A stretch of DNA of 46,417 bases from Prevotella sp. (GTDB lineage Bacteria; Bacteroidota; Bacteroidia; Bacteroidales; Bacteroidaceae), in contig JAEEPF010000007.1 in assembly GCA_016284635.1 (NCBI GenBank), forward strand, positions 1 to 46,417, written 5' to 3'. A program made the position numbers and the translations under genes. Positions within the stretch are counted from its first letter, which is position 1; every line of letters begins with the position of its first letter. The notes under the pieces were generated by a model. That model was not told the origin of the DNA. It made no database searches and saw only the letters and a list, made by a program, of their open reading frames with translations. Shown here in pieces: positions 3,273 through 29,725 of the stretch.

Positions 3273-3376
3273 GGACTTTTGGACTTTTGGACTTTGAACT
3301 TTGGACTTTTGGACTTTGAACTTTGAACTTTGAACTTTGAGCTTTGAACTTTGAGCTTTGAACTTTATGATTACAT
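3273..3376 (-). repeat. GTAATCATAAAG-(AAAGTTC)n array upstream of FHA gene
   Basis: about 13 heptads/octads, head GTAATCATAAAGTTC. Confidence 0.9.
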
Positions 3377-19694: not shown

Positions 19695-19737
19695 GTAATC
19701 ATAAAGTTCAAAGTTCAAAGCTCAAAGTTCAAAGTTG
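19695..19737 (+). repeat. GTAATCATAAAG-(AAAGTTC)n array upstream of rsmE
   Basis: GTAATCATAAAGTTCAAAGTTCAAAGCTCAAAGTTCAAAGTTG. Confidence 0.9.
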
Positions 19738-20496
19738 AAAGAGTCCCGTTATTTCTACGTTCCTGATGCATCACAACAGAGAGAGTTGCCTGCCGATGAG
19801 TGCCAGCATGCCATCCGCGTGCTGAGGCTGAAGGTGGGCGACGAACTGTTCCTGATGGATGGGGTAGGGAACTACTACCGTGCTGAGGTGACGGAAGCCT
19901 CCTCTCATCACTGCTGCTATGAGATCGTGGAGACTTTGCCTCAGGAGCGCCAATGGACAGGCAATGTGCATCTGGCCATTGCTCCGACAAAGATGATGGA
20001 CCGCATGGAGTGGATGACTGAAAAGGTGACAGAGATTGGTATTGATGAACTCACCTTCCTCGACTGTCAGTTCTCTGAGCGTCAGGTGGTCAAGCTGCCC
20101 CGTATTGAGAAGATTGTCATCTCAGCCGTCAAGCAGAGCCACAAGGCCTGGATGCCCATCGTGCATGAGATGACGGCCTTCAAGACCTTCATCACCCAAC
20201 CTCGTGAGGGCCGTAAATACATTGCCCACTGCTATGAGGAAATCCCTCGCACCTATCTCTTTGACGAGTTGCAGAAACCCTCAACTGTCAACTGTCCACT
20301 GTCATCTGTCAACTCTGATGATGTCACCGTATTGATTGGCCCTGAGGGAGACTTCTCCATCGATGAGGTGCGTCAGGCAGTGGCAGCTGGCTATCAGTCC
20401 GTCCATCTTGGCAAGAGCCGCCTCCGTACAGAAACAGCAGGCCTCTCAGCCGTCATGATGATGCAACTGAGTAAAGGTAAAATGGTAAAAAAGTAA
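19735..20496 (+). CDS. rsmE: 16S rRNA (uracil(1498)-N(3))-methyltransferase
   Basis: YFYVPDASQQRELPADECQHAIRVLRLKVGDEL, TVLIGPEGDFS, LGKSRLRTETAGLSAV; TTG start inside a heptanucleotide array. Confidence 0.93.
   Translation: MKESRYFYVPDASQQRELPADECQHAIRVLRLKVGDELFLMDGVGNYYRAEVTEASSHHCCYEIVETLPQERQWTGNVHLAIAPTKMMDRMEWMTEKVTEIGIDELTFLDCQFSERQVVKLPRIEKIVISAVKQSHKAWMPIVHEMTAFKTFITQPREGRKYIAHCYEEIPRTYLFDELQKPSTVNCPLSSVNSDDVTVLIGPEGDFSIDEVRQAVAAGYQSVHLGKSRLRTETAGLSAVMMMQLSKGKMVKK
20284..20314 (+). repeat. ACTGTCA heptads inside rsmE
   Basis: ACTGTCA ACTGTCC ACTGTCA TCTGTCA ACT. Confidence 0.88.
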
Positions 20497-20522: not shown

Positions 20523-20563
20523 GTAATCATAAAGTTCAAAGTTTAAAGTTCAAAGTTCAAAGT
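20523..20563 (+). repeat. GTAATCATAAAG-(AAAGTTC)n array upstream of phenylacetate-CoA ligase gene
   Basis: GTAATCATAAAGTTCAAAGTTTAAAGTTCAAAGTTCAAAGT. Confidence 0.9.
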
Positions 20564-20572
20564 ATAAATAGT

Positions 20573-21913
20573 ATGACTGACGAGAAAATCATGGCTACTA
20601 TCAAGCCTGACGGTGAATGCTGGCAGCCGGAAATCGAGAAAATGCCAAGAGAGCAGCTGGAAGCACTGCAAGTGAAGAAACTCAAGGAGAGCATCAAGGT
20701 TGCTCTTAACTCTCCTTTCTACAAGAAGCGTCTGGGAGATCTTGGCATCACGCCTGACTCCATCAACTCGCTGGCAGACCTCCGCAAGATCCCCTTCACC
20801 ACGAAGCAGGATCTGCGCGACAACTATCCTTATGGCCTCGTAGGCAGAAGTCTGGACGATGCCATCCGTATCCACTCTACCAGTGGTACCACGGGTAATC
20901 CCTGTGTGGTGGTCTATTCAGAGCACGATATCTGCTCTTGGGCCAACATGATTGCCCGCAACCTCTATATGGTGGGCTGCCGCAAGAGCGACATCTTCCA
21001 GAACTCTTCTGGCTACGGTATGTTCACTGGCGGTCTGGGCTTCCAGTATGGTGCAGAGTGGCTGGGTGCTATGACTGTTCCTGCTGCTGCTGGTAACACC
21101 AAGCGCCAGATCAAGTTCATCAAGGACTTTGGTACCACCGTTCTTCATGCCATCCCCTCTTATGCCATCTATCTGGCAGAGGCCATTAGGGAAGAAGGTA
21201 TTGATCCAAAAGATCTGAAACTTCACACACTCTGTATCGGAGCAGAGCCCCATACTGAGGAGCAGCGTCGTCGTATTGAGCGTGTGTTGGACGTCAAGGC
21301 CTACAACTCGTTTGGTATGACAGAGATGAACGGTCCTGGTGTGGCCTTTGAGTGTAAGTATCAGGAAGGCATGCACCTCTGGGAGGACAACTACATCGTG
21401 GAGATTGTCGATCCTGAAACCTTGGAGCCTGTGCCCGATGGTCAGATGGGTGAGATGGTGCTGACCACCCTTGACCGTGATATGATGCCTGTGCTGAGGT
21501 ATCGCACCCGTGACCTCACCCGCATCATCCCTGGTGAGTGTAAGTGTGGACGTACCCATCGCCGTATTGACCGCATCAAGGGCCGTACTGATGATATGTT
21601 CATCATCAAGGGTGTCAACGTCTTCCCGATGCAGGTGGAGAAAGTCCTGGTGCAGTATCCCGGCTTGGGCAGCAACTATCTGATCACACTCGACACCGTT
21701 AATGACAGCGATGTGATGACCGTTGAGGTAGAGCTTGAAGGACTGGAGTCGGATATCTTCCCCGATATTCAGAATATGACGAAGGACATCCAGGCAGCCC
21801 TGAAGAGTGAGATCCTGCTGAAGCCTCAGGTGAAGCTGGTGAAGAAGGGCTCTCTGCCCATGAGCGAGGGCAAGGCTGTCCGTGTGAAGGACTTAAGAGA
21901 AGGTAGAGGATGA
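20573..21913 (+). CDS. phenylacetate-CoA ligase family protein
   Basis: STSGTTGNPCVV, FGMTEMNGPGVAFEC, RTRDLTRIIPG..CGRTHRRIDRIKGRTDDMFIIKGVN. Confidence 0.92.
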   Translation: MTDEKIMATIKPDGECWQPEIEKMPREQLEALQVKKLKESIKVALNSPFYKKRLGDLGITPDSINSLADLRKIPFTTKQDLRDNYPYGLVGRSLDDAIRIHSTSGTTGNPCVVVYSEHDICSWANMIARNLYMVGCRKSDIFQNSSGYGMFTGGLGFQYGAEWLGAMTVPAAAGNTKRQIKFIKDFGTTVLHAIPSYAIYLAEAIREEGIDPKDLKLHTLCIGAEPHTEEQRRRIERVLDVKAYNSFGMTEMNGPGVAFECKYQEGMHLWEDNYIVEIVDPETLEPVPDGQMGEMVLTTLDRDMMPVLRYRTRDLTRIIPGECKCGRTHRRIDRIKGRTDDMFIIKGVNVFPMQVEKVLVQYPGLGSNYLITLDTVNDSDVMTVEVELEGLESDIFPDIQNMTKDIQAALKSEILLKPQVKLVKKGSLPMSEGKAVRVKDLREGRG

Positions 21914-22503
21914 AAACCAGGCTGTTTGCTTTAGGCTTATGGCTGATGGCATTCACCAGTCAGGCGTCTGCACACCAACAGACTCCTGACTCCTGTCTCC
22001 AGTCTTCTGACTCCAGTCTCCAGACTCCTGACTCCTGTCTCCTGACTCCTGACTCCTGTCTCCTGACTCCTTCCCTCTCGGATGTCTTCAAGCAGATGCC
22101 TGACTCCCTGATGCCCTATCTGTCTGCCAACAACCGCCTGGACTTCATCGACTTCATGGACTCCAACATGAAGGCCGAGGTGTCTAATCAGACGGGTGGC
22201 ACCAGTGAGATGACAGCCCTGACAGACGACAGCCTCTCCATCCGTATGAGCGATGCCCTGCGGGTGGATATGCTGCTGTTCGATCTTGATGAGCCTGTTG
22301 ACACCATCCGGCAAGTGATTGTTTTTGTTGAGACCTTCCTGTCAGACTCCATCTATGGTGAGAGTGTCTGCAAGACATTCTCCCTTGACTGGCAGCCTGT
22401 CACGAGGGATATTCCATTTAATGAAGCGCAGCGGAAGCGTCTGGAGCCTCTAAACCTGCAAAATATCCTTAAATGGAGTGAGGATAAATTAAACAATCGT
22501 TAA
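21910..22503 (+). CDS. DUF3256-type secreted protein carrying a heptanucleotide-encoded insert after the signal peptide
   Basis: signal peptide then DSCLQSSDSSLQTPDSCLLTPDSCLLTP, then FKQMPDSLMPYLSANNRLDFIDFMDSNMKAEV. Confidence 0.7.
   Translation: MKTRLFALGLWLMAFTSQASAHQQTPDSCLQSSDSSLQTPDSCLLTPDSCLLTPSLSDVFKQMPDSLMPYLSANNRLDFIDFMDSNMKAEVSNQTGGTSEMTALTDDSLSIRMSDALRVDMLLFDLDEPVDTIRQVIVFVETFLSDSIYGESVCKTFSLDWQPVTRDIPFNEAQRKRLEPLNLQNILKWSEDKLNNR
21981..22071 (+). repeat. 13 in-phase heptads GWCTYCW (91 bp) inside DUF3256-type gene
   Basis: GACTCCT GACTCCT GTCTCCA GTCTTCT GACTCCA GTCTCCA GACTCCT GACTCCT GTCTCCT GACTCCT GACTCCT GTCTCCT GACTCCT. Confidence 0.95.
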
Positions 22504-28584: not shown

Positions 28585-28657
28585 GTAATCATAAAGTTCT
28601 TGGCGATGCCAAGCGGCAAAGCCGAGCGCAAAGTTTAAAGTTCAAAGTTCAAAGTTG
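28585..28657 (+). repeat. GTAATCATAAAG-(AAAGTTC)n array upstream of murB, interrupted by a double-hairpin module
   Basis: GTAATCATAAAGTT[CTTGGCGATGCCAAGCGGCAAAGCCGAGCG]CAAAGTTTAAAGTTCAAAGTTCAAAGTTG. Confidence 0.88.
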
Positions 28658-29683
28658 AAGGATTTCCGCAATTATAGTCTGAAGGAGCATAATACATTTG
28701 GCATCGACGCCAAGTGCAGCCGGTTCATAGAGTTTGAAGACGATGATGAAGCCGTCGAGGTGGCTAAGATCTTGCGTGAATCAGCTACACCTTATATAAT
28801 AATAGGTGGAGGCAGCAACCTCCTGTTGACGAAAGACTTTGATGGCATCGTGGTGCGGTCAGGCATCAGGGGGCATTACTTTGAGGAGTCAGGAGACAGG
28901 AGTCAGGAGACAGGAGTCAGAATGACCTGCGGCAGTGGTGAGGTGTGGGACGATATGGTCGCCACCAGCCTCAAGGGTGGCTATTACGGTATGGAGAACC
29001 TCTCGCTGATTCCTGGCGATGTGGGGGCCTCGGCTGTGCAGAATATCGGTGCCTATGGTATGGAGGCCAGCGACCTGATACTCTGTGTCTGGATGATAGA
29101 GATTCCTACAGGAAAGCCTTGGATGATAGGCAATGAGGAATGTGAATATGGCTACAGGCAGAGCCGCTTCAAGCAAGACTGGAAGAACCGCTTCCTCATA
29201 ACACGTGTGACCTATGGTCTGGCCAGAACCTTCCAACCGCATCTGGACTATGGCAACATCCGTCAGGAACTGGAGCGGAGAGGCATCAAGGAACCAACTG
29301 CCCAGCAACTGCGCGATGTGATCATCGATATCCGCAATGCTAAACTGCCTGATCCAAAAATTGAGGGCAATGCCGGCAGTTTCTTTATGAATCCCATCGT
29401 CACTCGCCAGAAATATGAGAAGCTTGCTGCCCTGTATCCGGATATGCCACACTACAAGGTGGACTCCCGTCATGAGAAGATTCCTGCAGGCTGGATGATA
29501 GAGCAGTGTGGTTGGAAGGGAAAGAGCCTGGGCCGTGCTGGTGTCCATGATAAGCAGGCGCTGGTGCTTGTGAATCGTGGTGGTGCCACTGGCTCTGAGA
29601 TCGTCGCCCTCTGTGATGCCATCCGCAAAGACGTAAAGGCCAAATTCGACATCGACATCCATCCAGAAGTCAATATAGTGTAA
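28655..29683 (+). CDS. murB: UDP-N-acetylmuramate dehydrogenase
   Basis: SLKEHNTFGIDAKCS, YIIIGGGSNLLLTKDFDGIVVRS, IPGDVGASAVQNIGAYG, GNAGSFFMNPIV; TTG start inside a heptad array. Confidence 0.94.
   Translation: MKDFRNYSLKEHNTFGIDAKCSRFIEFEDDDEAVEVAKILRESATPYIIIGGGSNLLLTKDFDGIVVRSGIRGHYFEESGDRSQETGVRMTCGSGEVWDDMVATSLKGGYYGMENLSLIPGDVGASAVQNIGAYGMEASDLILCVWMIEIPTGKPWMIGNEECEYGYRQSRFKQDWKNRFLITRVTYGLARTFQPHLDYGNIRQELERRGIKEPTAQQLRDVIIDIRNAKLPDPKIEGNAGSFFMNPIVTRQKYEKLAALYPDMPHYKVDSRHEKIPAGWMIEQCGWKGKSLGRAGVHDKQALVLVNRGGATGSEIVALCDAIRKDVKAKFDIDIHPEVNIV
28885..28919 (+). repeat. five heptads GGAGTCA/GGAGACA inside murB
   Basis: reverse complement of the family in the DUF3256-type gene. Confidence 0.93.
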
Positions 29684-29725
29684 TCATAAAGCTCAAAGTT
29701 TAAAGCTCAAAGTTCAAAGTTCAAA
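29681..29725 (+). repeat. GTAATCATAAAG-(AAAGYTC)n array upstream of MBL gene
   Basis: GTAATCATAAAGCTCAAAGTTTAAAGCTCAAAGTTCAAAGTTC. Confidence 0.9.

Follow-up and report, generated by a model that had tools for sequence, protein, structure and literature searches.

A heptad array within murB of a rumen-type Prevotella and its relation to a dispersed GGAG[T/A]CA repeat family

The murB locus and its heptad array

The DNA analysed here (the window) is a 46,417-nucleotide stretch of a rumen-type Prevotella genome, a 3.67-Mb assembly of 304 contigs that is 83% complete (G000). Its forward strand carries, at positions 28655–29683, a gene with a TTG start for a 342-residue protein. The product scores 396.7 bits against the curated MurB family NF000755, for which the cut-off is 277, and the best Foldseek matches of its structure model are the MurB structures 4jay and 2q85, with TM values of 0.87–0.89. 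By family match and by fold the protein is a full MurB, UDP-N-acetylmuramate dehydrogenase, the product of an essential gene. A plasmid search returned nothing beyond ordinary murB matches and a short match to a Nostoc repeat.

The gene is bracketed on the same strand by heptad arrays of another family, AAAGTTC (28585–28657 and 29680–29725), and relatives have different repeats at these flanks. Directly upstream of murB, Tandem Repeats Finder and the sequence itself delimit an array at 28629–28657, and the TTG start codon lies within its last unit, AAAGTTG. Slightly further upstream, at 28585–28599, the motif GTAATCAT, recognized as a head by motif statistics, is followed by one AAAGTTC unit. 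At the other end, a GTAATCAT head and an AAAGTTC array occupy 29680–29725, and the TAA within this head (29681–29683) serves as the murB stop codon.

Inside murB, positions 28885–28919 of the forward strand consist of five exact heptads in which GGAGTCA and GGAGACA alternate, GGAGTCA standing first and last. Tandem Repeats Finder reported this array at 28884–28920 with period 7 and 5.3 copies, and with a 100% match at period 14. Period-7 identity reached 24 of 28 positions, compared with a maximum of 19 among 5000 codon shuffles of murB. The array is read in the murB frame and encodes E-E-S-G-D-R-S-Q-E-T-G-V-R, residues 77–89. An earlier sequence-only reading had recognized the five heptads and their frame, and the sequence, the repeat finder and the shuffles agree on both; the segment it assigned to them, GDRSQETGV, does lie within the array, which is slightly wider and spans codons 77–89.

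The same reading had proposed a surface loop, to be placed with a structure model. In the AlphaFold2 model of the window MurB (mean pLDDT 86), the array segment forms the low-confidence turn of a beta-hairpin. The hairpin comprises residues 70–93 (28862–28933, forward strand), with strands at 74–78 and 88–93 and the turn at 79–87, and its length varies among orthologues. In the MurB of a related genome, G200, in which the loop reaches 67 residues, residues 88–125 are predicted at below 50 and the remaining fold is intact. The murB array adds a polar, flexible loop of heptapeptides resembling E-S-G-D-R-S-Q, and it is probably a nearly neutral passenger with no function of its own in MurB.

Loop lengths and reading frame in MurB

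To place the array among relatives, we used about 120 genomes of the same genus as G000; the compared genomes are metagenome assemblies, in which repeats are open to misassembly. We aligned 90 same-genus MurB proteins and measured the loop enclosed by two conserved motifs, GIRG and CGSGE. Its commonest lengths in the genus are 16–17 and 20–21 residues, and in the window it has 25. Where the window has FEESGDRSQETGVRM, three of the other proteins (L004–L006) have FED-GYRM or similar. The array residues are absent from the repeat-free orthologues, which agrees with the claim that murB carries extra, in-frame residues here. The further claim that the insert is exactly bounded by the heptads did not hold: either the array displaced some of the original turn, or it expanded from a few initial bases. 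The net gain is also not 35 nucleotides. A precise 35-nucleotide insertion was likewise ruled out, given that ortholog loops differ by 15–27 nucleotides or in 21-nucleotide steps.

The loop measures 20 residues in the sister genome G018, which has no array, and 16–17 in many relatives. Among the array-bearing loops, that of G213 is 18 residues long and holds two degenerate units; those of G000, G103 and G013 are 25, the units of G013 being decayed; that of G216 is 32, with eight units; and that of G200 is 67, with about 23. All of these lengths (18, 25, 25, 25, 32 and 67) fit 18+7k. Three heptads amount to 21 nucleotides, or seven residues; no smaller number of whole units can be gained or lost without a frameshift. 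We also considered whether the array could be an artefact of metagenome assembly or contamination. The fragmented and incomplete state of the window's genome would allow for this, but arrays occur at this position in independent assemblies (RUG195, RUG12181 and RGIG7649), where the number of units differs and the frame is preserved throughout, and an artefact is hardly credible. The first two of these, G216 and G200, are rumen assemblies whose MurB is 93–94% identical to that of the window.

The murB array is one of a dispersed family, GGAG[T/A]CA, and a likely, though by no means certain, explanation is that this is a heptameric satellite whose arrays lengthen and shorten by slippage and persist only at places where reading frame and fold are preserved. 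The arrays would expand and contract by copying whole 7-base units, most probably through replication slippage; the murB array occupies the turn of a naturally length-variable hairpin; and purifying selection would leave only changes of three units, since 7 is not a multiple of 3 and other numbers of units break the frame. This would produce the ladder of 18, 25, 32 and 67 residues. The sequence-only reading had the family "entering" murB; an insertion event may have occurred, but later three-unit growth by slippage fits the series of lengths better than a single insertion does.

Phase-variable loci typically carry, within a coding gene, a tandem repeat whose unit length is indivisible by three. 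One-unit slippage could in principle shift the frame of murB and turn the gene off and on as in a contingency locus, and the 7-nucleotide unit and the varying array lengths are what such a locus would have. However, every allele that we read between species is in frame, with no out-of-frame allele among them; the array-bearing genes encode housekeeping enzymes and not surface structures; and, from general knowledge, a cell with murB switched off would not be expected to survive. Phase variation is therefore very improbable as an account of this array, and slippage under selection for frame and fold remains the reading we prefer.

Arrays of the same family within other genes

To follow the family across genomes, we searched for three GGAGWCA units with one mismatch allowed and used the reversed pattern as a control. 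The window's genome contains 403 matches (189 forward and 214 reverse), and the control gave none. Among the other same-genus genomes, G103 has 221 matches and G119 has 56, the rest having at most 25 and most having none; G208 returned identical counts and coordinates to G103 and is the same genome. Genomes added by exact search contain 132 (G216), 135 (G213) and 318 (G200) matches, all three with units in the MurB loop; G214 (77 matches) and G210 (32) have no heptad units there. The array-rich genomes are those with an array in MurB, an association that we state without a p-value, the genomes being related and partly chosen for having arrays. Among 199 relatives, two genomes are array-rich, and they are the two with a murB array.

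A second array in the window lies in a gene of the DUF3256 type (21910–22503, forward strand; PF11644, 94.8 bits). It has 13 units at 21981–22071, in reverse orientation on the minus strand, and was identified from the sequence and by Tandem Repeats Finder. It sits between the signal peptide and the domain, where relatives have only a few residues. The same family is therefore present in both genes in opposite orientations, as had been read from the letters. The description of a family present in two coding genes was correct for these two but far too narrow: of 53 independent arrays sampled in G000, with coding calls made from codon-usage scores on both flanks, 31 lie in frame within coding sequence, compared with 69% of random positions at the same loci. 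Within these 31, the unit reads GGAGWCA in 27 cases and its reverse in four. This bias is expected, because a reversed run of GGAGTCA contains TGA in every frame; the reverse array in the DUF3256 gene stays open because GGAGACA gives TGT where GGAGTCA would give TGA.

Array-bearing genes that score above their family cut-offs include those for SufB, LeuRS, Tgt, Lon, FolE and a class III FBPase; the last carries a reverse array and scores 991 bits. The FolE array is N-terminal, and the FolE and Lon arrays fall outside the strict set of 31. The genes for SufE and MalQ also carry arrays, both belonging to the set of 31. In alignments with PDB structures, Tgt, SufE, Lon and MalQ have additional residues where the array lies, and in LeuRS and SufB the array region is already variable.

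We then compared 12 gene sites of G000 with the orthologous sites of G216, G200 and G018. No GGAGWCA array is present at any of the 11 sites found in G018. Where close relatives both have an array, the length differences are mostly 0, ±7 or ±14 residues (SufE, AbnA, L199, L215, L050 and L203): SufE is seven residues longer in G216, L199 differs by −7 and +7 and L215 by −7, and AbnA, L050 and L203 show no difference in G200. The exception is L214, with differences of −1 and −3 residues, which are not multiples of 7. The arrays are apparently tolerated in genes because they encode floppy loops and change length in three-unit steps.

At several of these points other species have different repeats. 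GAGGAAA heptads are found at the orthologous points of Lon and MalQ in G200 and of SufB in G200 and G216; this family has 240 matches in G200 and between 1 and 36 in six other genomes. The SufE point of G200 holds an inverted heptad structure, and the SufE hairpin has other repeat-like inserts of 22 residues (G018, L264) and 33 residues (G200, L263), which makes SufE a second hotspot for repeat inserts. In MurB, the hairpin of G115 (L061) contains CGGCAAC heptads, and those of G031 (L016) and G071 (L118) contain dispersed hairpin repeats. A dispersed CGGCAAC family was ruled out, since these heptads occur only in the murB loop of G115, an assembly that is 62% complete; their confinement to this loop favours local growth. 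That heptads of another sequence, or hairpin repeats, take up the same protein loops elsewhere among the species indicates that the site is permissive, and certain loops are refilled repeatedly by whichever repeat is active.

These distributions bear on the age of the murB array. It could descend from a single array that was already present before the G000 and G103 clades diverged and was lost or decayed in most later lineages, a history compatible with slippage and selection. The arrays of G000, G103 and G013 share the same start codon and the same 25-residue loop, the heptads of G013 have decayed, and G213 is in a two-unit state, all of which would suit such a history. In a nucleotide murB tree built without the loop, however, the array-free G018 is sister to G000 with support of 100/99, and G103 falls outside a supported six-member clade. 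The coincidence of array-rich genomes with murB arrays and the filling of the same loop by different repeats in G115, G031 and G071 also count against it. A single ancient gain is thus possible but doubtful, and on these sequences recurrent gain is favoured over an ancient gain followed by many losses. We also considered gene conversion between the murB loops of G000 and G103, for which the identities of 0.82 to the left and 0.72 to the right gave no support, those with the array-free neighbour L008 (0.77 and 0.74) being not clearly lower.

Polar heads, other phyla and known heptameric repeats

Slippage with selection for frame and fold accounts for the stepped lengths, the position in loops and the occurrence in housekeeping genes, but not for dispersal, and the unit would have spread to new places by a further route. 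Slippage alone leaves unexplained the hundreds of sites in one genome, the same units in several phyla and a head motif, GTA[AT]TC, that is shared among arrays. The GTAATCAT head stands directly 5' of 17 of 30 AAAGTTC arrays (the window and loci L273–L302), compared with a background of 0.4%; the window arrays considered were those at 3308–3374, 19695–19741, 20523–20563 and 29680–29725. More broadly, among 89 independent period-7 arrays drawn from several unit families, 22 have GTA[AT]TC facing outward at one end only, compared with 1.5% at random, and none of the 89 has it at both ends or in the opposite orientation. AAAGTTC arrays are not confined to intergenic DNA, 10 of 23 lying within coding sequence. 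Some heptad arrays form inverted pairs around a core of 30–100 nucleotides (L046 1430–1540, L049 1494–1625, L194 1176–1310, L295, L296 and L299), among which GAGAATACTCCTGCnGCAGA... and TTTTTGATnTGACTGACCGTTAAA...GTAATCAT recur as cores. A conserved mobile core around every array was not adopted, as only a minority of arrays has a head or a core.

The polar head on several heptad families may point to a dedicated mechanism. The heptads could be the tail of a polar mobile element, in which a dedicated enzyme lays down 7-mers behind a GTA[AT]TC head and headless copies such as that in murB are truncated or decayed. The one-sided heads on both sets of arrays and the inverted pairs speak for such an element. 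On the other hand, the murB array and most GGAGWCA arrays are headless, heads are scarce in other phyla, and no enzyme or target-site duplication was identified, the empty sites having been compared for length and content. We regard this element as unlikely. Equally improbable is its wider form, in which Prevotella arrays of unrelated units all arise by one polar mechanism from the GTA[AT]TC head, GGAG[T/A]CA has moved among phyla, and the arrays within genes are tolerated products.

The exact 35-mer of the murB array is also found in cyanobacteria (Microcystis and Iningainema), Acidobacteria, Planctomycetia, Desulfosporosinus, Desulfurivibrio and others. These genomes of other phyla have 26–752 pattern matches each, with a control of 0 in all except one Acidobacteria assembly (81), and few of their arrays have a GTA[AT]TC head. 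In other phyla only 1 of 19 arrays lies within an open reading frame; among the related Prevotella, 11 of 15 do (p=5e-5). In this comparison, presence of the 35-mer was the criterion for choosing loci, and a single genome contributes several of the arrays. GGAGTCA/GGAGACA arrays of other phyla nearly always lie between genes (L121, L123–L132, L134, L138–L140, L143, L144, L146, L148 and L151). In IMG/VR, GGAGWCA arrays of at least four units occur in 20 stretches of viral contigs (L154–L173).

Among described repeats, the nearest are the heptameric simple sequence repeats known from Xanthomonas and, as STRR, from Nostoc (Rehm et al. 2015, PMC4692102); their intragenic share is 7–11% in Xanthomonas and roughly one third in Nostoc PCC7120. 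The Prevotella arrays share with them a 7-bp tandem unit, many dispersed copies on both strands, unit variants and a sporadic distribution, but the former are mostly intergenic, which the Prevotella arrays, 31 of 53 being coding, are not; the unit is also distinct from GGGNATC and lacks three consecutive Gs. The TAACTGA direct repeats of Beggiatoaceae, Cyanobacteria and some Bacteroidetes likewise place one heptamer in scattered phyla without an evident transfer mechanism, but they are mainly intergenic and near start codons, contain stop codons in forward reading, and are not described in frame within conserved genes (MacGregor 2015, PMC4679880). Slippage by 7 nucleotides has been proposed for heptamers generally (Mrazek 2007, as cited in PMC4679880).

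In habit, the family is closer to the Rickettsia palindromic elements, also dispersed and kept in frame in conserved protein genes (Ogata et al. 2000, in PMC2229807), as GGAGWCA arrays are in SufB, LeuRS, Tgt, SufE, Lon, MalQ and FBPase. Those elements are palindromes of 105–146 bp with terminal inverted repeats, whereas the murB element is no palindrome but five 7-bp direct repeats of 35 bp in total. The fast-evolving tandem repeats of Borgs also create disordered regions within open reading frames and have hotspots (PMC9879509). They belong to extrachromosomal archaeal elements, and those in open reading frames often lie in extracellular or membrane proteins, in contrast to the Prevotella arrays, which have a non-triplet unit and lie in host genes for conserved housekeeping enzymes. 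Taken together, the GGAGWCA arrays are heptamers in sequence and resemble the Rickettsia elements in habit, and they are full members of neither class. A literature search, in which the cyanobacterial heptamer literature was covered incompletely, returned no report of heptads in Prevotella genes.

Viewed against the whole family, the murB site by itself is unremarkable; what is unusual is the genome-wide habit of lying within genes. The prevailing view is that non-triplet tandem repeats are excluded from the interior of bacterial genes, and we know of no established mechanism for heptameric repeats. In this genome, a single 7-base family falls within genes almost as often as random positions do, among them genes for enzymes of translation, the cell wall and iron-sulphur metabolism. 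The repeatedly refilled loops are natural experiments on loop tolerance, and the arrays provide a dense set of alleles for studying the engine behind heptameric repeats.
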